Below are positions 47,412-59,256 of a DNA stretch of 64,000 bases, piece after piece (the stretch's first letter is position 1; every line of letters begins with the position of its first letter). Location of the stretch: NCBI GenBank assembly GCA_021820485.1, contig JAKADO010000003.1:1-64000 (forward strand), written 5' to 3'. This DNA comes from Bacillota bacterium. GTDB taxonomy: Bacteria > Bacillota > Sulfobacillia > Sulfobacillales > Sulfobacillaceae. The position numbers were made by a program, and so were the translations under genes. Under the pieces are notes generated by a model. That model worked only from the letters and a program-made list of their open reading frames with translations, had not been told where the DNA came from and made no database searches.

Positions 47412-47894
47412 ATGGATGCAGCCATTAAAAAACAAGCATTGCGTCTTTTCACCTATGGGCTGTACATCGGAACAGCTGGCCACGGCGATGACGTGGCCGC
47501 GGGCACCATCAACTGGGTCTCGCAAGCTTCCTTTCAGCCGCCGTTGGTGATGGCAGGGGTCAAGGCAGATAGTCATCTCCATGCGCTCATCGAGTCGACC
47601 GGACAATTCGCAATTAATGTGTTGAGCGCCGACCAGAAGGGTGTGGCCCAAGATTTCTTTCGTCCCAGCCAGCAGGATGGCCAGAGCTTGAATGGCCACG
47701 CCTTCGAGCCTGGGCCGGCCACGGGGTCGCCGCTGTTGACCGAATTGCCAGCTTGGGTGGAATGTCGCGTGACCGATGCCGTCAAGCGAGGCGACCACAG
47801 CGTCTTTGTCGCAGAGGTCATCGAGGCCGGCGTACGCGATGACGCGGCTAAACCTTTGGACATGTGGGACACTGGTTGGTTCTACGCCGGATAA
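47412..47894 (+). CDS. Flavin reductase-like (FMN-binding) protein
   Basis: GTINWVSQASFQPPLVMAGVKADSHLHALIESTGQFAINVLSADQKGVAQDFF; RBS AAGGAGGAAAC. Confidence 0.9.
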   Translation: MDAAIKKQALRLFTYGLYIGTAGHGDDVAAGTINWVSQASFQPPLVMAGVKADSHLHALIESTGQFAINVLSADQKGVAQDFFRPSQQDGQSLNGHAFEPGPATGSPLLTELPAWVECRVTDAVKRGDHSVFVAEVIEAGVRDDAAKPLDMWDTGWFYAG

Positions 47895-47901
47895 AGTAGG
47901 G

Positions 47902-47936
47902 AAAAGCGCATCAGCTATCCTAAGCTGATGCGCTTT
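47902..47936. terminator. Bidirectional terminator between convergent genes
   Basis: AAAGCGCATCAGCT-ATCCTA-AGCTGATGCGCTTT; the minus-strand gene stop (47920-47922) lies in the loop. Confidence 0.85.
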
Positions 47937-49002
47937 GTGCTGCTTTGAGAATGCGTTCGATCTCCCGATCGTCGATGGCCCGTTCAAAGCGGCGAAAGCC
48001 GGCCATTGAAAACCCATGCTTGTCAGCCAACTCGCGAATCTCCCGCACTCGGTCCACTTGGATGGTAGGCCCCAGCGTAAAGCACTCCAAACGTCCTTCC
48101 AAGGCCAAGATCATCGTTTCCGCCATGCACGCCTCCACCATCTTGGGCGGAAAGCCAAAATCAAAACCCATGTCGGCCTGGGCCCCCGGCACCTGAATCA
48201 CTCCGCCGTCCAGCACCAAAACATCATTGCGCCGTTCCATCACAACCCGCGACAGATTGCGGGGGCGGGCCACATCGGTGACCACGGCTCCGGGCTTCAG
48301 ATCCTCCGGTTCCACAATGACGCCTGTCGCCGACGACACGGCCACAACCAAGTCAGCGGGCCGTACGGCCGCGGGAATGTCTGTGGTCCAGTTGACCTCC
48401 AGTCCGGGATGTTCTCCGCGAAGCTCGTTCGCGAGCTCCTCCAGTTCGCTTGGGGTGCGCGAGACCAGCGTCAAATGCCGCACCTTTTCCGCCAACAGCC
48501 AAGTCGCCGCTCGCCCAATCGAACCCGTAGCCCCAATGACCGTGGCCGTAATGCGGCGCACATCCATCTGCATCCGATCAGTTGCCTGAAGAGCTCCTGC
48601 CACAGCGGTGGCTGTCGTATACGAGTTTCCTGTTGTGACCGGAATGCCGACCCGTTGCGAGAGCGTAATCCCACGGTCGCCAGCAATTTTCGTAAAGGCT
48701 CCCAGACCCACGATCTCGGCCCCTAATTTCTCAGCCAGTTGGGTCGCCGCCATGAGCTTCTTCAACACCCAGTCATAGGGGGCGTTCAGCAGGATCTCTG
48801 GGGTTAGGGGCAAGCCCAACAGCCACCCCTCCAACTCTTCTCCTGTCTTGGACTGGACACCCGTCACATGCCCCGCCATGACGGGCCCCACTTGCTTAAA
48901 GGCCCATTCCACCAACTTGGGTGGAAGGTGCTGGGTAATAGGATACTTGCGGGCAAAATCATCGAAGCGCAGTGGGTGAATGATGAAGGCAAACTTGCGC
49001 AT
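47920..49002 (-). CDS. Acyl-ACP reductase-like / COG5322-type dehydrogenase
   Basis: LGAEIVGLGAFTKIAGDRGITLSQRVGIPVTTGNSYTTATAV, ATVIGATGSIGRAATWLL, VLDGGVIQVPG, AETMILALEGRLECFTLG: pattern shared with cyanobacterial acyl-ACP reductase. Confidence 0.75.
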   Translation of the reverse strand: MRKFAFIIHPLRFDDFARKYPITQHLPPKLVEWAFKQVGPVMAGHVTGVQSKTGEELEGWLLGLPLTPEILLNAPYDWVLKKLMAATQLAEKLGAEIVGLGAFTKIAGDRGITLSQRVGIPVTTGNSYTTATAVAGALQATDRMQMDVRRITATVIGATGSIGRAATWLLAEKVRHLTLVSRTPSELEELANELRGEHPGLEVNWTTDIPAAVRPADLVVAVSSATGVIVEPEDLKPGAVVTDVARPRNLSRVVMERRNDVLVLDGGVIQVPGAQADMGFDFGFPPKMVEACMAETMILALEGRLECFTLGPTIQVDRVREIRELADKHGFSMAGFRRFERAIDDREIERILKAAQSASA

Positions 49003-49116
49003 AGGACACCTCCGTGCACAAAACTGTGCACATTGTACCACACGCCCTCCCCAAGGCGCTACCAAGCGCTTCCAAATGGCCGGGAAGCGGATTTCACCGC
49101 CCCGCCAACCACCGCA

Positions 49117-49557
49117 TCAACCTTCGGGACGCAGTTGAATAAGGGCTGCGCCGTCGGTTGACATGACTCGTGCCCCTTCTTGATTCACCACTTCAAAGTG
49201 CATCCCGATAATGCCGCGCGGCTGGCTTTTCGACAGACGCGCCTGCGAAATCGTGACGGTCGTGTAAAGGGTGTCACCAGGCCGCACGGGATAAAGCCAT
49301 TGGACCCGATCCAATCCTGGCCCTCCCATGGAGGCATCGCCCAGCACATCCTTCGCAATCCACCGAGACCAGACCATGCTGAGCGTATGATAGCCGGACG
49401 CGATAAGGCCGCCGAATGGCCCTTGGCTGGCAAAGTCCGCATCCACATGAATGCGCTGGGGATCATATTGGCGGGCAAACGCCAGAATCTCTTCCAGTGT
49501 CACGGTTATCGGCTCCAAGTGGAAGACCTGACCGACCCGAAACTCGTCAAAATACAA
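49117..49557 (-). CDS. MaoC-like (R)-specific hydratase family protein
   Basis: FARQYDPQRIHVDADFASQGPFGGLIASGYHTLSMV hot-dog/MaoC motif; VRPGDTLYTTVTI. Confidence 0.9.
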   Translation of the reverse strand: MYFDEFRVGQVFHLEPITVTLEEILAFARQYDPQRIHVDADFASQGPFGGLIASGYHTLSMVWSRWIAKDVLGDASMGGPGLDRVQWLYPVRPGDTLYTTVTISQARLSKSQPRGIIGMHFEVVNQEGARVMSTDGAALIQLRPEG

Positions 49558-49599
49558 CAGTCCATCCCCCCTGATGCCTCTATCTTAGCGATTTTTAGC

Positions 49600-51054
49600 C
49601 TAAAGCGCCTCTTGATGCCCAGGTTCCAACACCTGCTTGTGGGGCGCGAGGAGCGGAAGAGACGATAGCAACGCTAGGAGATAGAAGCCCACAAATACCC
49701 AGAACCCCATATTGGTGGCGTGGATTAATGCGCCCTTGGCCGCTTGGTTCAACAGATTTGACGTCCCCAGATAAATTTGGGAGGCGACGGCAGGCGGCAA
49801 GCTCGCTTCCGCGACAACCAGCGCCACGGTCAGGGATAAGGCCATCCCCACGTTGCGAAATGTAAAGAACATCCCGGATGCCGAACCGGTCCGATGCGGG
49901 GGCGCAGAGGACATGACCGCCTTGGTCAAGGACGGCCAAGCAATGCCGTTGGAGGCGGAAATCAAGAGCAGCGGCATAATGACGGGCCAGGCTGCAAAGT
50001 GGGCGGATAGATGGCCGAGCCAGAAACTGCCCACCGCCATGCCGATAATGCCAATCAAGACGGGGCGCGCCGGTCCAAAACGGTCGGCCAACGATCCTCC
50101 CAAGGGGCCCATGATGAGTTGCGGCGCCGAAAGCGGCACCAACATCAACCCCGCATTCTGGGGACTCAAGTGCACGGCGCCCTGAAGATAAATTGTCAGG
50201 AGAAAAGTCGTCGCAAAATACCCAATGGAGTAACTGACGGTGACTCCAAGACCCGACAGGTAGTGGCGGTGCCGCAATAGGCCTAGGTCAAACATGGGCT
50301 GCCGCTGGCGCTTTTCCGCTGCCACAAACGTTGCCATCAAGGCCAACGTAACCGCGGCGAGCCCAAGAGTGCGATCGGAGAGCCAACCCCATTCCTGGCC
50401 AAACGACATCATGAGCAGAAGGCCGACCAGCCCAAGGCCAAAAGTGACCGCGCCCGCCCAGTCGGTTTTGGCCTCACTTTTGCGGGGAGCATCCTCAAGG
50501 ACAATCCATGATCCAATAAGGCCGACGAAGGCGAATGGAATTGCTACAAAAAAGATCCAGCGCCATCCCACGCTGCCCACCAAAAAGCCTCCCACCACGG
50601 GTCCAACAATGGAGCCCATCACCCATGAGGTCGAATTGATGCCAAGAGCCCGTCCCAACTGCACCGGCGGGAAGGCGCTGACAATGATGGGTGTTGCGGT
50701 GGCCAGCGCCAGCGCCGCCCCCGTGCCTTGCACCAGTCTAAACGCCAAGAGCCATGTGCCGGAAGGGGCCATGCCGCATAAAAACGTCGCCGCGGTAAAG
50801 ATGACCAATCCGCTCATAAAAATTTTCTTGCGGCCCACCAGATCGGACCAGCGTCCGGCCGGCAGCAGAAATACGGTACTGGTAATAATGTAGGAGGTCA
50901 GCGTCCACAGACCGGTAGTGACCGTAATATGAAGGCCAGCCACCATTCGAGGCAGTCCGACGACCACAATGGTTCCATCTAAATTGGTCATGAAGGCCAC
51001 CAGAGTGACCACCGCCAAAATCCACCACTTGCGAGAATTTGCTGTATGCTCCAT
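49600..51054 (-). CDS. MFS transporter, DHA2 (EmrB/QacA-type) family
   Basis: 14-TM-like; FMTNLDGTIVVVGLPRM, GRWSDLVGRKKIFMSG, FRLVQGTGAALALATATPIIVSAFPP. Confidence 0.9.
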   Translation of the reverse strand: MEHTANSRKWWILAVVTLVAFMTNLDGTIVVVGLPRMVAGLHITVTTGLWTLTSYIITSTVFLLPAGRWSDLVGRKKIFMSGLVIFTAATFLCGMAPSGTWLLAFRLVQGTGAALALATATPIIVSAFPPVQLGRALGINSTSWVMGSIVGPVVGGFLVGSVGWRWIFFVAIPFAFVGLIGSWIVLEDAPRKSEAKTDWAGAVTFGLGLVGLLLMMSFGQEWGWLSDRTLGLAAVTLALMATFVAAEKRQRQPMFDLGLLRHRHYLSGLGVTVSYSIGYFATTFLLTIYLQGAVHLSPQNAGLMLVPLSAPQLIMGPLGGSLADRFGPARPVLIGIIGMAVGSFWLGHLSAHFAAWPVIMPLLLISASNGIAWPSLTKAVMSSAPPHRTGSASGMFFTFRNVGMALSLTVALVVAEASLPPAVASQIYLGTSNLLNQAAKGALIHATNMGFWVFVGFYLLALLSSLPLLAPHKQVLEPGHQEAL

Positions 51055-51200
51055 GCTGTCTCCTCATGACGTAATATCGATACCAAAGGCACGTTGTTGC
51101 AGTAACTTCCCAAAAAGAAGCCGCAAGTGCATATCAGTATAGCGAACGCCCGCTTGCTCCAGCAAGATATGAATCGCCCCCGCGCCCCTGGATCATGAAT

Positions 51201-51241
51201 GGGACCACCAGGTCCCCTAACATTGGGCCATTTGGTCCTAA
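51201..51241. promoter_or_regulatory. Two tandem imperfect palindromes upstream of the CoADR-rhodanese gene
   Basis: GGGACC-ACCA-GGTCCC (51201-51216) and GGGCCA-TT-TGGTCC (about 51225-51238). Confidence 0.45.
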
Positions 51242-51249
51242 TAACTAAA

Positions 51250-51265
51250 ATACCCCCCGGTGTAT
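51250..51265. promoter_or_regulatory. CsoR/CstR-family-like operator candidate
   Basis: ATACCCC-CC-GGTGTAT palindrome 35 nt upstream of the CoADR-rhodanese start; similar sites near 55703 and 56007. Confidence 0.45.
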
Positions 51266-51300
51266 ATTGGCTTTATGAACTTTTTGGGGGGATAGGGACT

Positions 51301-52971
51301 ATGCACATTGCCATCATTGGAGGCGTCGCCGGCGGCGCCAGCGCCGCCACCCGGGCGAGACGGCTCAACGAGGAAGCAGACATCACCATCTTCGAAAAAG
51401 GGCCCTATGTTTCGTATGCCAATTGCGGCTTGCCCTACTACGTCGGCGGCCAGATTGCCACATCCGACGAGCTTTTGCTGGAAACCCCGGAAAGCCTGTG
51501 GGACCGTTTCCGCATCCGGGTGCATGTCAATACCGAAGTCACGGATGTTGACCTGGTAGGCAAGCATCTTCGCTTTGTCAAAGCCGGCATGGAAGGCCAT
51601 ACCGCCTTTGACCGCTTGGTGCTGGCACCGGGCTCAGCTCCCATCATACCCAATTTGCCCGGTGTGGAGCGGCCCGATGTGTTTTTGCTGCGCACGGTCC
51701 CCGACGCGTTGCGTCTGAGGGAATATCTCGAGGAGCATCCCGTGCGCCATGCGGCCGTGATTGGTGCTGGGTTCATTGGTCTCGAGATGGCGGAAGTGCT
51801 TCGTCACCGCGGCCTGGAGGTCACTCTGGTGGACCAGGCTCCCCATGTGCTTCCACCTGTTGACAGTGACATCGCAGGATTCTTGGAGAGCCGCATGCCC
51901 GAACTGGGTATCCATCTCGCGTTGTCCAATACCCTATTGGGTATCAGAGGCGCTGTGGGTCGTCCCATCGTTGACTTGTCATCCGGTCCCGCCGTGACCA
52001 CCGACATCGTTGTCATGGGCCTCGGTGTGCGCCCCTCGCTCCATCTGGCCCGCTCAATGGGGTTGGTCTTAGGATCCACAGGCGCCATTCAAGTCAACGA
52101 CCGCATGCAAACATCGCATCCTGATGTGTTCGCGGCTGGAGACGCCGTGGAAAAATGGGACCTGGTCACTCAAAGCCCACGCTGGTGGCCACTCGCTGGC
52201 GTTGCCAATAAGGAAGGGCGCGTCGCTGGCACCAATGCGGCCGGAGGCTACGCGACTCTGAAGGGTGCTCTAGGCACTGGCATCGTCCGATTGGCTCCCT
52301 ATATTGTCGGGGTCACAGGCCTCACCGAAAAGATCGCTCAGCGAGAACACATCCCCTATCGGTTGCTGCACACCATCCGCGGCCACCACGCCGGATACTA
52401 TCCGGGTGCTCGGGATGTGTTGATCAAACTTTTGTACGATCCCGCCACCGGTCGCATCTTGGGCGCGCAGGCTGCTGGGGAGGAAGGCGTCGACAAGCGC
52501 ATTGACGTGATTGCGACGGCCATTCACGCGCGCATGACAGTCGATGACCTGGCCGATTTGGATTTGGCGTACGCTCCCCCCGTAGGCGCGGCCAAGGATC
52601 CTGTGATTATTGCCGGGATGGCGGCAGCCAACCATCACCAGGGCTTGGTCGAGAACGTATCCGCCGACCAGTTGGCCGAATGGCTTACCCGCCCGGAGTC
52701 GCCCTTTCTATTGGACGTGCGCGACGTTCACGAGACCCTCGAGAGCGGCATTATTCCGGGAGCCAAAAACATCCCGCTGAATGACCTGCGGGCGCAAATC
52801 GATGAAGTGCCCCACGATGGTCCCGTCGTGGTTTATTGTCGCAGCGGGCACCGCAGCTATCTTGCCGCTCGGATTCTGCGGCAGGCGGGCCGGTCCGCCG
52901 TCTTTAACCTAAGCGGCGGATACATCGTGTGGGGTCTGGCCCGTCCTAAGGAATCCCACATGCCCGTCTAG
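51301..52971 (+). CDS. CoA-disulfide reductase / NADH:persulfide reductase with C-terminal rhodanese domain
   Basis: IIGGVAGGASAATRARRLNE, YVSYANCGLPYYVGG (active Cys), LGVRPSLHLARSMGL, C-terminal VVVYCRSGHRSYLAARIL rhodanese loop. Confidence 0.93.
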   Translation: MHIAIIGGVAGGASAATRARRLNEEADITIFEKGPYVSYANCGLPYYVGGQIATSDELLLETPESLWDRFRIRVHVNTEVTDVDLVGKHLRFVKAGMEGHTAFDRLVLAPGSAPIIPNLPGVERPDVFLLRTVPDALRLREYLEEHPVRHAAVIGAGFIGLEMAEVLRHRGLEVTLVDQAPHVLPPVDSDIAGFLESRMPELGIHLALSNTLLGIRGAVGRPIVDLSSGPAVTTDIVVMGLGVRPSLHLARSMGLVLGSTGAIQVNDRMQTSHPDVFAAGDAVEKWDLVTQSPRWWPLAGVANKEGRVAGTNAAGGYATLKGALGTGIVRLAPYIVGVTGLTEKIAQREHIPYRLLHTIRGHHAGYYPGARDVLIKLLYDPATGRILGAQAAGEEGVDKRIDVIATAIHARMTVDDLADLDLAYAPPVGAAKDPVIIAGMAAANHHQGLVENVSADQLAEWLTRPESPFLLDVRDVHETLESGIIPGAKNIPLNDLRAQIDEVPHDGPVVVYCRSGHRSYLAARILRQAGRSAVFNLSGGYIVWGLARPKESHMPV

Positions 52972-52984
52972 AGTCCAACAGTGA

Positions 52985-53025
52985 ACACACCGGCCGCGGA
53001 TGTTCAGGCGGCCGGTGTGTTTTTT
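52985..53025 (+). terminator. Intrinsic terminator after the CoADR-rhodanese gene
   Basis: ACACACCGGCCGC-N10-GCGGCCGGTGTGT-TTTTT. Confidence 0.9.
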
Positions 53026-53036
53026 AGACAATTGCG

Positions 53037-53819
53037 CTATTGGGCTTCGTCCACGATTTGCGGCAAACGGCGCAGGAGCCCCATCATCAACTTCACGCCG
53101 TATTGGATTTCCGGGTCCTTCAAACTCCGCATGAGCCCCGTCACCGTCACGCGCGACGCGTCGGTGCGGGCAGCATCTGTCGCCGCGGCGAGCGCCTGCA
53201 TCGCCCGGATTCCCAAGTCAAGGAGTCCCGAGTCCAGGGCTGCGCGCAGGTCAATGACCGCATCCGCAGCAAAGGACACCACACGCTCGACGAGATGGGG
53301 GGTCAATGAGTCATTCATGCCTTTGACCAACGTGACCAATTGCACCAGCGCATCCCACGTGCCATCCTGTTGCCACGCACCCACTTGACGGAGCATTCGG
53401 GCCAGGTCGGCCCCGTGGTCTTCCATGGCACTCACCGTCTCCGCGACGCCAGGACCAGCTTCCCCGGCGATTTGGCCCAGGCCAATGGCCATGCTGGACA
53501 ACCGCTCGGCCAGGTGCGGGGTGGCGCTGTCGCGGAGTGCGGCCACCAAGGATACCGTCTCGGTGAGGGACTTCCAGGTCCCGTTGCGCTGCCAGTCCCC
53601 CAGTTGCTGCATCGCGGTGGTCAAGCCCTCCGCATTATCCATTGCCGTTTCCACGATGGCGCTTGCGGGACCCGCCTCGACTTCCGCCGCTACGGCACCC
53701 AAGGAGACCATGAGGTTGCTGATGCGCTCAGCCAAGCCCGCCGTCGCACTATCCTTCAGAGCGCCGAGAAGAGATGTCAATTCCCGCAAGGTGCTCTCGT
53801 CAACCTCTACCATTCCCAT
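53037..53819 (-). CDS. DUF1641-like helical repeat protein
   Basis: Two near-complete repeats and a partial third: LLGALKDSATAGLAERISNL / LVAALRDSATPHLAERLSSM / LVKGMNDSLTPHLVERVVSF; ends with SLKDPEIQYGVKLMMGLLRRLPQI; RBS AAGGAGGG. Confidence 0.72.
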   Translation of the reverse strand: MGMVEVDESTLRELTSLLGALKDSATAGLAERISNLMVSLGAVAAEVEAGPASAIVETAMDNAEGLTTAMQQLGDWQRNGTWKSLTETVSLVAALRDSATPHLAERLSSMAIGLGQIAGEAGPGVAETVSAMEDHGADLARMLRQVGAWQQDGTWDALVQLVTLVKGMNDSLTPHLVERVVSFAADAVIDLRAALDSGLLDLGIRAMQALAAATDAARTDASRVTVTGLMRSLKDPEIQYGVKLMMGLLRRLPQIVDEAQ

Positions 53820-53848
53820 CGCCAACCCTCCTTGTTCACTGGTGTCGG

Positions 53849-54985
53849 CTACAAAATGCCGGCTGCCGAGAGCCAGTACATCTTGTTGAACGCCAGCTTG
53901 TACAGGTGAATCATTTCCGTCGGTGCCTGCGGCTTGGGGGGGTGCTGGTAGTCAAATTTAATGTAAGTGGCTTCGTCATTGCCCGCCTCAATGAAACAGA
54001 AGACCTTGCCGTCGTAACGGACGGACCCGCGGCCGCCGCGAATGCGGTTCACCAGATTCGAGGACACCACATCGGCTTCGAAGTGTGCGGTCGACCCCGC
54101 CTTGCTGATGGGCAGGTTCGTCGCGTCGCCCAAGACGTAAATGTTGTCCGCGCCCTCCATTTGCAGGCTGTAGCGGTCGGTGGGAATCCAGTTGCCGGCA
54201 TCGCCCAGTCCCGAACGCTTAATCACGTCTTGACCCATATGCGGCGGAATGGCAACCAACAAGTCATACGAGACCGTGTCGCCTTCGAGGCTGGTGATGG
54301 TCTTCTTCTCCGGATCGACCGATTCTGTGTTGAAAAACACCTGGGAGTTGATATTGCGCTCTTGAAAGACGCCTGAGGCCCAGTTGGCCACCGGCTCCAG
54401 CGAGTGCAAGCGCCCGATGGGGTAGGTGTAGAACACTTCAGAGGATTGCATGCCTCGGTTGTTGAGCCAATCACGGACCATGAGCGTGAATTCCACCGGC
54501 GCGACCGGGCACTTGTGGGGGACGCCCACGGTGACGACGATGCGGCCTCCCTTAAACTCCGCCAGCGCGTCACGCAGCTTCAACGCTCCCTCTTGGGTGT
54601 AGAAGATGTGTCCGCCTTCCACCAATCCTGGAATAGTCTCCGGGGCTGGACGGCTGCCGGTGGCAATGACCAAGTAGTCATAGGGGATTTTGGTGCCGTC
54701 CCCCATCACCACGGCATTGGCGTCACGGTCCACGCGCTCCGCGTGGCCCACCACCAGCTTGATGAGGTGATTCAACACGCTGCGCTCCGGTCGCTGGGCA
54801 TCCGCCGGCACTGCTTGGTCAAACGCCATATAGAGGAAATAGGGCTGGTAAACATGAACGTCACTCTCGTTGATGACAGTAATTTCAACCTCGCCCCGCA
54901 AAATCTCAGACTTCAGTTGGCGGGCCAACTGGTTGGACACCATGCTGCCCCCAACACCACCACCCAACAACACCACACGCGTCAT
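53849..54985 (-). CDS. Sulfide:quinone oxidoreductase-like FAD flavoprotein
   Basis: VVLLGGGVGGSMVSNQLAR, VHVYQPYFLYMAF, YDYLVIATGSRP, HKCPVAPVEF, NIYVLGDATNLPISKAGSTAHFEADVV; only two Cys (in HKCP and VFCF). Confidence 0.88.
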   Translation of the reverse strand: MTRVVLLGGGVGGSMVSNQLARQLKSEILRGEVEITVINESDVHVYQPYFLYMAFDQAVPADAQRPERSVLNHLIKLVVGHAERVDRDANAVVMGDGTKIPYDYLVIATGSRPAPETIPGLVEGGHIFYTQEGALKLRDALAEFKGGRIVVTVGVPHKCPVAPVEFTLMVRDWLNNRGMQSSEVFYTYPIGRLHSLEPVANWASGVFQERNINSQVFFNTESVDPEKKTITSLEGDTVSYDLLVAIPPHMGQDVIKRSGLGDAGNWIPTDRYSLQMEGADNIYVLGDATNLPISKAGSTAHFEADVVSSNLVNRIRGGRGSVRYDGKVFCFIEAGNDEATYIKFDYQHPPKPQAPTEMIHLYKLAFNKMYWLSAAGIL

Positions 54986-55042
54986 CGGCGCTCCTCCTTA
55001 ATATCATGTAGCCGCGAGTCTGTCCCGCGGCCATTATCTTCT

Positions 55043-55273
55043 TTACTTCACCTTTTTGACCTGTACTTTGAAAATGCCGTCTTCCTCAACGTTGCCAACC
55101 ACCTCATGGCCGGCACGCGCCACCCATTCGGGAATATCCTTGGCGGAACCTCGATCGGACGACCACACTTCCAACACGGTGCCTACAGGCTCTTGCCGAA
55201 TGCCCTTGATCAATTCCATCAAAGGCCCAGGGCAAAACGATCCGCGTGCATCAATAACTTTTGCATCGGCCAT
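55043..55273 (-). CDS. TusA-family sulfur carrier protein
   Basis: VIDARGSFCPGPLMELIKGI (CPxP motif); RBS AAGGAGGATG. Confidence 0.92.
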   Translation of the reverse strand: MADAKVIDARGSFCPGPLMELIKGIRQEPVGTVLEVWSSDRGSAKDIPEWVARAGHEVVGNVEEDGIFKVQVKKVK

Positions 55274-55286
55274 GTTGACATCCTCC

Positions 55287-55679
55287 TTAGAACGTTAATG
55301 ATGTACCGCCGCTCACCTTGCCCAAAAATCCGGCGATGCCCATCATGTCATCGAAAATAGGCACGAGATGAGCCAGTTCCCAATGCTTGAGGTCGGCCAC
55401 CAAGCTGCACGCGTACAGATGCACGTCGCCCATGTCCTTCGCCTCGCTAAAGAGCCCGACATAGTCCGGCGAGGCGGTCTCGGCGATAATTTGCCCAATC
55501 GGCCCTTTGCCAATCGCCTCCCGTTCGCCAAGGTCCTGATGGAATGCGGGAAGGGCCTCCATCGAGACAAAGACGTTGACGGGCTGACCCAGGCTACTCG
55601 CCACCAGCGCCACCATGGCGGCCGCGTGGATCTTGGCGTAATCGCCGGAGAGCAGCATCAGATTCAATGAATCTCCCAT
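55287..55679 (-). CDS. DsrE-family protein
   Basis: LMLLSGDYAKIHAAAMVALVASSLGQPVNVFVSMEAL, HLYACSLVADL; co-operonic with tusA and SQR-like gene; RBS AGGAGGG. Confidence 0.85.
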   Translation of the reverse strand: MGDSLNLMLLSGDYAKIHAAAMVALVASSLGQPVNVFVSMEALPAFHQDLGEREAIGKGPIGQIIAETASPDYVGLFSEAKDMGDVHLYACSLVADLKHWELAHLVPIFDDMMGIAGFLGKVSGGTSLTF

Positions 55680-55702: not shown

Positions 55703-55719
55703 GTACCCCATGTGGTATT
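55703..55719. promoter_or_regulatory. CsoR/CstR-family-like operator candidate upstream of the dsrE-tusA-sqr-DUF1641 operon
   Basis: GTACCCC-AT-GTGGTAT palindrome about 25 nt upstream of dsrE. Confidence 0.4.
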
Positions 55720-55998: not shown

Positions 55999-56029
55999 TT
56001 GACGAGCATATCCCCCCAAGGGGTATGCT
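55999..56029 (+). promoter_or_regulatory. Candidate promoter overlapped by a CsoR/CstR-like palindrome
   Basis: TTGACG (55999) and TATGCT (56024) with 19-nt spacer; CATATCCCCCCAAGGGGTATG (56007-56027) covers spacer and -10. Confidence 0.45.
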
Positions 56030-56042
56030 CCCCCCGTGATAA

Positions 56043-56130
56043 GGGTAGCGTCCACCAATCGATGGCGTTTTATGTTCCCGTCCTGCGCAGGGACGAGGCA
56101 TGAACTCCCCGCGTTGGGGCGACACTAGCC
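56043..56130 (+). ncRNA. Candidate structured 5' leader
   Basis: Closing stem GGgTAGcGTC/GACaCTAgCC (56043-56052 with 56121-56130) enclosing GTTC..GAAC with CGTCC..GGACG, and CCCC-GCGTT-GGGG; before the RBS of an 81-aa ORF. Confidence 0.3.
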
Positions 56131-56153
56131 TAAAGGGTGGAGGAGGATGACGC

Positions 56154-56399
56154 GTGATATATATTGATATCACAGGTTGGGTGGATCCGCCTGCTCCCAT
56201 GAACGCGAGCCCAGCGTCGGCTGCGGCAACGGCGCTGCACGACCAAGGGCTTGGCGAGACCAGCCAACTGGAAGCCTTGTTGGAGCGCCCGCCCGCGCGC
56301 GTCGGCCCGTTTGAGCAATTTCGCGAGGCACAGTCGATCAGTCGGCTGCTTCAAGGATTCGGAGCGTTGGCCATGGTGGTGGAGGACCAGAATCCGTAA
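56154..56399 (+). CDS. Orphan small protein (81 aa), unknown function
   Basis: GTG start after GGAGGAGGATGACGC RBS; upstream promoter/operator-like sequence; no family recognised. Confidence 0.5.
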   Translation: MIYIDITGWVDPPAPMNASPASAAATALHDQGLGETSQLEALLERPPARVGPFEQFREAQSISRLLQGFGALAMVVEDQNP

Positions 56400-56416: not shown

Positions 56417-57442
56417 CTAAAAGGACGGCGCTTGCGATGGAATGCCCGATGGAGAGGGCGAGGGGCTGGGTGACGGTGAGGGATACGACGGCCCGCTGGG
56501 CGAAGGTGACGGAGATGGGCTAGGGCTTGCTGACGGCAACAAGGTGTTGGGATGGGATTGCGGATTGGCTGCCCAGGAGCGTGCCATGGGAAATGCGCGG
56601 CTCATGGGAATGGCAAAGCCAATGTTCCCGGATGAGGACGTTACCCCTGCCGTATCCATCCCAATGACCGCTCCCGTGGCAGCGAGGACCAAGGGTCCCC
56701 CGCTGTTTCCCGGAGCAATGGGCGCGGAAATTTGAAACATGTTCTGGTAGTTGACGCCGCTAATCGCAAAGTTGCGGTGAAGGCCGCTGATGATGCCTGT
56801 CGTGACCGTATTGGCCAACCCCAAGGGACTGCCGAACGCCAACACGTTGTCACCGAGCGACCCGGAATAACGGGCATCCACTGGCAAGGGCTTCAAGGTT
56901 AGTCCCGGCACCCGAATGACCGCCACGTCCCTGGCCGGATCCGCGCCAATGATGGTGGCGGCGTAGGTGTTCCCTTGCTCCGTTTTGATGGAGACGCTGG
57001 ACGCTCCGCTCACTACGTGGTCGTTGGTCAAGATATCCCCTTGGGTATCGAAGACGAACCCGGAACCCAAATCTTCCCCGCTCGGCGTGGTGACCATGAC
57101 CTCCACGACGCTCGGCATGGTGGAGGCAATGATGGATGCCTGCGAGGGCGCTCCTGTGGACGCAGAGTGCGTGCTTTTTGCCTGGTGCAGAGCCATCCCG
57201 CCGCCATGGGGATGATGCACCGGAGCTCCGGATGGCACGGGACGGCCATTCAAGTGCGTCCCAATAAGGATTCCGCTCCCTAAAAGGAGTCCGCCCGCCA
57301 GCACCGATCCCGCCATCACCCAGGGACGATGGGAGAGAATGTTCGTCCAGCGGGAAAGAGGCAGTGCCGCCGGATGGCCGCACTGCATGCAGAACTTGTC
57401 GTTTGGGCCCATCTCGAACCCGCATTGTCCACAGGTCATCAT
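56417..57442 (-). CDS. Trypsin-like (DegP/HtrA) serine protease with N-terminal zinc ribbon, TM and C-terminal Pro-Ser repeats
   Basis: CGQC..CMQC zinc ribbon, TM, catalytic GDILTNDHVVSG (H), DPARDVAVIRV (D), APGNSGGPLV (S); PSPSPSPSP tail. Confidence 0.88.
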   Translation of the reverse strand: MMTCGQCGFEMGPNDKFCMQCGHPAALPLSRWTNILSHRPWVMAGSVLAGGLLLGSGILIGTHLNGRPVPSGAPVHHPHGGGMALHQAKSTHSASTGAPSQASIIASTMPSVVEVMVTTPSGEDLGSGFVFDTQGDILTNDHVVSGASSVSIKTEQGNTYAATIIGADPARDVAVIRVPGLTLKPLPVDARYSGSLGDNVLAFGSPLGLANTVTTGIISGLHRNFAISGVNYQNMFQISAPIAPGNSGGPLVLAATGAVIGMDTAGVTSSSGNIGFAIPMSRAFPMARSWAANPQSHPNTLLPSASPSPSPSPSPSGPSYPSPSPSPSPSPSGIPSQAPSF

Positions 57443-57639: not shown

Positions 57640-59256
57640 CTACCAGGTGGCCACGGTTCCGTCGGCCCGGGGCTCCGTGCCCCCCATCAGCACCCCATTG
57701 GGAGCGCGCCAAATGATTTCACCGCGTCCGAACATGCCCCTTTCCTGCGTCACTTCGACTTCGTGTCCTCGGCGGCGAAGTCCCTCCACGACGTGCTCCG
57801 GCATGAACTGTTCCACCACCACCCGATTGCCTTCGGCCCAATAGAATCTTGGCGCATCCAGAGCCGCCTGTGGATTCATTCCACGCTCCAGCACATTGCT
57901 CATCACTTGCACATGGCCTTGCGGCTGCATGAATCCACCCATCACGCCAAACGGCCCAACCGGCGTCCCCCGGTGCGTGAGAAATCCGGGGATAATCGTG
58001 TGAAAGGGCCGCTTGCCGGGTTCCAGGCTGTTCGGGTGTCCTTCCTTAAGGGAAAAGAGATTGCCGCGGTTCTGCAGCGCGATCCCGGTCCCCGGCACCA
58101 CCAACCCCGACCCAAATCCTGCGTAGTTGCTTTGGATGTAGGACACCATATTGCCTTCCGCATCTGCCGTGGCTAAATAAACCGTGCCGCCGGGCACCGG
58201 AGCGCCTGCGTCCCGCAGCTTCGCCCGCTCGCCAATCAGTGCTCGCCTGGCGTCCATGTAGGATTCCGACAGGAACGTCTCGGCCGACCAAGGCATGGCC
58301 CGCGGATCCGTCAAATAGGCCGACGCATCCGCGAACGCGAGCTTCAAGGCCTCGATCTGATAGTGAATCCGCTCCTCTTCACTCTGGCTCGGCAATTTGC
58401 TCAACATCTTCAGCGCCATCAAAGCCACCAGGCCCTGCCCGTTGGGGGGGAGTTCCCACACGTCATAACCTTGAAAGGCGACAGACAAGGGGGTCACCCA
58501 TTCCGGCTGGTAACGCGCCAGGTCATCCTTCGTCATGACGCCACCGGTTTCACGCGAAAACCCCGCGATTTTCTCTGCCAGCGCTCCCCGATAGTAGGAC
58601 TCGGCCTGGGTACGTCCAATTTCCTCGATGGTCCGCGCATGATCGGCCGATCGCCAGATTTCGCCTGGCGCCGGCGTGCGCCCTCCCGGGGCAAAAACCC
58701 GAAACCATTCCGCATATTCGGGGCCCTTCAAAAGTTCCGAAAATCGTCCATGCGCGAGGCCCCAGTAGTGCGAGACGGTGGGCGACACGGGATATCCTTC
58801 ACGTGCCAGTTCTACGGCTGGCCCCACGCTGGCCGCCAGGGGGACCCGCCCGAACCGCTCAGATAGTGTCGCCCACGCAGCCGGCACGCCAGGAACGGTT
58901 ACGGGAGCCCACCCGTGGGTAGGCATGGCATCGAACCCTTGTTTCGTCACCCATTCCCGCGTGAGCCCCTGCGGAGCTGGCCCGCTGGAGTTTAACCCAA
59001 ACAGCTGTCCCCGAGACCATACGAGGGCAAAGGCGTCCCCTCCGAGCCCGTTTGACGTGGGCTCCACCACCGTAAGGCTGGCCGCTGCCGCAATGGCGGC
59101 ATCAATGGCATTCCCGCCCTCTTGCATGACGCGAAGCCCTGCGGCGGCAGCATGCGGTTCGCTGGTGGCGACCATGCCGTGCCGGCTGTATACGACCGTG
59201 CGTCGCGAAGGATAAGGATATGCATTGGCATTCTGAGATTGGGTTGGATCCGGCAT
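57640..59256 (-). CDS. ggt: Gamma-glutamyltransferase family protein
   Basis: ATSEPHAAAAGLRVMQEGGNAIDAAIAAAASLTVVEP, GGTVYLATADAEGNMVSYIQSNY (Thr nucleophile), GVMGGFMQPQGHVQVMSN. Confidence 0.93.
   Translation of the reverse strand: MPDPTQSQNANAYPYPSRRTVVYSRHGMVATSEPHAAAAGLRVMQEGGNAIDAAIAAAASLTVVEPTSNGLGGDAFALVWSRGQLFGLNSSGPAPQGLTREWVTKQGFDAMPTHGWAPVTVPGVPAAWATLSERFGRVPLAASVGPAVELAREGYPVSPTVSHYWGLAHGRFSELLKGPEYAEWFRVFAPGGRTPAPGEIWRSADHARTIEEIGRTQAESYYRGALAEKIAGFSRETGGVMTKDDLARYQPEWVTPLSVAFQGYDVWELPPNGQGLVALMALKMLSKLPSQSEEERIHYQIEALKLAFADASAYLTDPRAMPWSAETFLSESYMDARRALIGERAKLRDAGAPVPGGTVYLATADAEGNMVSYIQSNYAGFGSGLVVPGTGIALQNRGNLFSLKEGHPNSLEPGKRPFHTIIPGFLTHRGTPVGPFGVMGGFMQPQGHVQVMSNVLERGMNPQAALDAPRFYWAEGNRVVVEQFMPEHVVEGLRRRGHEVEVTQERGMFGRGEIIWRAPNGVLMGGTEPRADGTVATW

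Follow-up and report, generated by a model that had tools for sequence, protein, structure and literature searches.

Most published CsoR-family sites are pseudo-palindromes containing stretches of four or more G or C residues, and in Thermus sulfur oxidation is under the control of a CsoR-family protein (PMC10318464). On the protein side, the described systems closest to the locus considered here are the C-terminal domain of ribosomal protein L7/L12 and the protease adaptor ClpS. We analyzed a window (the whole stretch of DNA, 64,000 nucleotides) from a Sulfobacillaceae bacterium whose draft genome (G000) comprises 3.24 Mb in 164 contigs and is 92% complete. Within it, a -35-like hexamer, TTGACG (55999-56004, + strand; five of six bases agree with TTGACA), is followed by a 25-bp imperfect palindrome, AGCATATCCCCCCAAGGGGTATGCT (56005-56029), a leader (56036-56138, +), a Shine-Dalgarno sequence, GGAGGAGG (56139-56146, +), and, 7 nt further on, a GTG at 56154 that opens a frame of 81 codons with its stop at 56397-56399 (56154-56399, +). 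The hexamer, the palindrome over the spacer and -10 region, the Shine-Dalgarno-GTG pair, and the reading frame were all present where an earlier note, made from the sequence alone, had placed them. A gene for a trypsin-like protease with a zinc-ribbon-like N-terminal stretch and a PSPSPS-repeat C-terminus (56417-57442, -) comes next in the opposite orientation, so that the 81-aa gene stands alone. We consider it likely that the locus is a stand-alone small gene with a promoter probably regulated through the dyad, a plain leader, and an 81-aa product that may act as an adaptor.

Orthologues and coding evidence

The earlier note had proposed a conservation search for the open reading frame (ORF). 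When 101 genomes were searched at the protein level, intact orthologues turned up in three further Sulfobacillus genomes (43-52% identity overall; 52, 51, and 45% in this search, E 2.4e-19 to 2.7e-16), one of which is Sulfobacillus harzensis DSM 109850 (G005:C221). When the four sequences were aligned, the start codons coincided and 22 columns were invariant, mostly within LPARxGPFxxFxxAxSxxRLLxGYGA; the orthologues also carry a Shine-Dalgarno sequence, GAGGTGATC or GGGAGGT, at the equivalent place. Substitutions among the orthologues are enriched at third codon positions. For the closest orthologue pair dN was 0.29 and dS 1.07 (dN/dS ∼0.3), and for the window gene and its G006 orthologue the values were 0.49 and 1.36, the remaining pairs being saturated. 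Judged on this comparison, the ORF is a genuine protein-coding gene under purifying selection, and the orthologues, the selection, and the aligned starts bear out the proposal of a small gene that has a promoter and a Shine-Dalgarno sequence of its own. The protein had no match in Pfam or NCBIfam, and a sequence search of the PDB returned only chance matches; the statement that it matches no family is thus correct for Pfam and NCBIfam, but the genus does hold orthologues. A four-sequence profile revealed nothing convincing outside the known orthologues in 42 genomes of the order. A profile scan of the genome contigs recovered the three known orthologues, S. harzensis included, and a single-sequence search of the same contigs gave no match. 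A 91-aa open frame in G025 matched the profile weakly (E 0.0175), and its kinship to the 81-aa protein was not confirmed. Across the genomes searched, the 81-aa protein is an orphan family restricted to Sulfobacillus and known from four genomes, and the remainder of the locus is mostly ordinary.

The S. harzensis copy is flanked as it is here, by orthologues of window positions 47412-51054 and, at its other end, by an orthologue of the gamma-glutamyltransferase-like gene (57640-59256), and the syntenic place lacks both the protease and the sulfur cluster that occupies 51199-55679 in the window. In genomes G002 and G006 the 81-aa gene lies 62 and 90 nt, respectively, downstream of a fliN-like gene (PF01052) on the same strand. 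That fliN-like gene ends a run of chemotaxis-like genes (L024:4918-5684 and L025:5203-6180), a possible hint at the function of the 81-aa gene. The suggestion that the ORF encodes a sulfur- or metal-related protein found no support: the product has no cysteine and no metal motif, its orthologues are not beside a sulfur cluster, and in two genomes the preceding gene is fliN-like.

Promoter, leader, and neighboring sulfur genes

The last six bases of the palindrome form the -10-like sequence TATGCT, separated from TTGACG by 19 bp. A generic sigma-70 scan, limited to spacers of 16-18 bp, did not list TTGACG-19-TATGCT; spacers of 19 bp are typical of MerR-controlled promoters. The expected number of palindromes of the AGCATATCCCCCCAAGGGGTATGCT class in the 474-nt intergenic stretch is 0.016, and the whole window holds 11, compared with 0-10 (mean ∼3) across 20 random sequences; what makes the site suggestive is its position and not its rarity. 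It is probably the site of a regulator, of uncertain class, and it may be a CsoR-class operator. An operator search of the source genome with ATACCCCNNNNGGGGTAT found six places, compared with four for the control, a result too weak to stand by itself.

The earlier note had drawn the leader, ∼110 nt long, as a closed multi-branch structure. Its two inner hairpins do fold alone (-10.9 and -5.7 kcal/mol), but the closing stem (56043-56052/56121-56130) has only eight standard pairs out of ten, the other two positions being G-G and C-A, and in the ensemble computed for the 118-nt leader the pairs of this stem reach a probability of ∼0.002. In the minimum-energy fold, part of the Shine-Dalgarno sequence is paired in place of the proposed closing stem. 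The folding energy of the leader was -39.6 kcal/mol, compared with -37.8 ± 3.5 kcal/mol for dinucleotide shuffles (z -0.53; 59 of 200 shuffles did as well or better). A scan of the leader with Rfam 15 at both thresholds gave nothing relevant, the 15 bits for bxd_2 against a cut-off of 80 being chance. Among 60 other genomes we found no convincing DNA relative of the leader, and the upstream regions of the three orthologous genes were no more similar to it than shuffled DNA (z -0.7, 0.3, and 1.7), the ORF DNA giving z 9-13 in the same test. So far as sequence can show, the RNA half of the earlier proposal therefore lacks the conservation in related genomes by which the note had meant it to be judged. 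With ordinary stability, no Rfam match, and orthologues that have no such leader, the leader appears to be neither conserved nor unusual, and the reading as a cis-regulatory RNA or riboswitch should be dropped pending close strains or reporter data; an RNA element private to the source species is possible.

The sulfur cluster beside the 81-aa gene encodes a CoA-disulfide-reductase-like protein with rhodanese, a DUF1641 protein, a sulfide-quinone-reductase-like protein, TusA, and DsrE. The motif ATACC-N4-GGGGTA has a single exact copy in the window, before DsrE of the DsrE-TusA-oxidoreductase operon (55704-55718, -); when up to one mismatch is allowed, there are eight occurrences, compared with 0.5 expected. 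A CstR-like site (51250-51264, +) directly precedes the CoA-disulfide-reductase/rhodanese-like gene. The motif also precedes DsrE in S. harzensis and in G004, and variants of it are found in others; the near-identical DsrE of S. harzensis (90%) is on another contig than its 81-aa gene. Elsewhere in the source genome (locus L068, G000 C81:7480-10710), a motif-type site, ATACCCCTAGCGGTAT, lies directly before TauE. At that locus a CsoR-family repressor adjoins a double rhodanese and the TauE sulfite exporter, and it is likely a cst-type locus. The source genome encodes a CstR-like protein at C81:8980-9210 and a CsoR-like protein at C30:17933-18175. Motif and gene content together indicate that the neighboring sulfur genes very probably form a CstR-type regulon. 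The sulfur signal belongs to these neighbors with their CstR-like operators and not to the 81-aa protein; the site before the 81-aa gene could at most be a divergent representative of the regulon.

Alternative readings of the locus

Long open frames are common at high GC, and here the complementary strand is likewise open across most of the ORF; even so, a chance frame is contradicted by the orthologues, the aligned starts, and the dN/dS values, and we regard it as wholly implausible. A second reading concerns the origin of the protein, which might descend from a metallo-beta-lactamase-fold gene fragment within the same bacterial family. Residues 3 to ∼58 align with positions ∼113-173 of 425-498-aa proteins that have the beta-lactamase fold (E 9e-7 per genome). 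Each of the four orthologues aligns to this identical stretch, and the profile score was 43.7, whereas none of 300 column permutations scored above 21. The first ∼57 residues of the 81-aa protein (56154-56333, against L005, L006, L007, and L009) thus resemble a stretch that follows HxHxDH in these proteins (PF12706), which are found across the bacterial family. The HxHxDH metal motif and a full metallo-beta-lactamase domain are absent from the 81-aa sequence, so the resemblance is partial. We nonetheless think such descent improbable, since the order-wide profile search matched the beta-lactamase-fold proteins at just E 0.018, the TGWVD part is predicted as a strand in the 81-aa protein but as helix or loop in its larger counterpart, the two genes have no gene order in common, both are present in G002, and purifying selection speaks against a relic in decay. 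If the resemblance did reflect ancestry, the locus would hold a gene fragment that acquired a new fold.

The remaining alternatives concern regulation. The two GC-rich hairpins that fold alone, and the pairing of part of GGAGGAGG in the minimum-energy fold, could be taken to mean that the leader is a riboswitch or a translation-level switch over the 81-aa gene, for example by masking the Shine-Dalgarno sequence. The shuffle-like energy and the searches of Rfam and of 60 other genomes make this very unlikely, and nothing similar precedes the syntenic gene in S. harzensis; moreover, the gene starts just 62-90 nt past the fliN-like gene in G002 and G006. It is less far-fetched, although still unlikely, that the 81-aa gene belongs to the CstR sulfur regulon and is co-regulated with the adjoining DsrE-TusA operon. 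The half-site ATACCCCTTGGGG recalls the ATACC-N4-GGGGTA motif found before DsrE, the CoA-disulfide-reductase-like gene, and TauE, but the palindrome departs from that motif at two positions, its dyad is longer than those before DsrE and TauE, no sulfur cluster adjoins the syntenic S. harzensis gene, and no such site was seen upstream of the orthologues. Bolder combinations, a Sulfobacillus-only free-standing L7/L12-CTD/ClpS-like adaptor whose transcription responds to sulfur or metal in one species, or a metallo-beta-lactamase fragment that refolded, seem to us quite doubtful.

Predicted fold and comparison with known systems

The AlphaFold2 model of the 81-aa protein, which rests on four sequences, reached a mean pLDDT of 88.8, with two of the five models poor. 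It places strands at residues 2-9, 48-53, and 71-77 and helices at 20-30, 36-44, and 56-68, in the order beta-alpha-alpha-beta-alpha-beta. The top Foldseek match in the PDB was the L7/L12 C-terminal domain (1ctf; TM 0.68/0.79, E 2.2e-3, no match passing 1e-3), ClpS also ranked among the first, and bL12-type proteins were among the first matches in a viral model library, with E likewise above 1e-3. A profile comparison with 31 L12 domains (PF00542) scored 8.8 against a null of 8.7, which indicates likeness of fold and not membership in bL12. The SPOR domain, whose RxGPF...EA...L...G...V pattern is alike by eye, was rejected (Foldseek TM 0.43 at rank 21, no Pfam match). The protein is probably shaped like the L7/L12 C-terminal domain or ClpS. 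This predicted fold is the sole reason for proposing an adaptor role, in which the conserved C-terminal half (LPARxGPF...RLLxGYGA) might bind a partner.

For the stand-alone, dyad-regulated small gene that we favor, the promoter with its regulator site would drive a short leader of no special structure, and the strong Shine-Dalgarno sequence on that leader would direct translation of an 81-aa cytoplasmic protein, a predicted free-standing domain of the L7/L12-CTD/ClpS type that may act as an adaptor whose conserved C-terminal half binds a partner protein. Control would be exerted at transcription through the palindrome and not by an RNA switch, either by a CsoR/CstR-class repressor or, because of the 19-bp spacer, by a MerR-type activator. 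The analysis adds one supported, genus-restricted family of small proteins to Sulfobacillus, a genus of acidophiles known from bioleaching and mine waters, and eliminates one false riboswitch candidate. If the fold is right and a protease or translation partner is bound, the protein would be a small new adaptor.

Compared with described CsoR/CstR operators, which are pseudo-palindromes with C and G runs over a promoter (PMC10318464), AGCATATCCCCCCAAGGGGTATGCT has a comparable layout, and on one half it resembles the nearby CstR-like sites; its two mismatches and longer dyad set it apart from the DsrE and TauE sites. The order of elements predicted for the 81-aa protein is that of the bL12 C-terminal domain (PF00542), but the 81-aa protein has no N-terminal dimer domain, hinge, or sequence signal of bL12, and the host genome encodes its own bL12 elsewhere. 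As for ClpS, the 81-aa protein has no Pfam match and, as far as Pfam tells, no ClpS signature, but its predicted model has the same general fold (TM ∼0.6), and both are small free-standing proteins.
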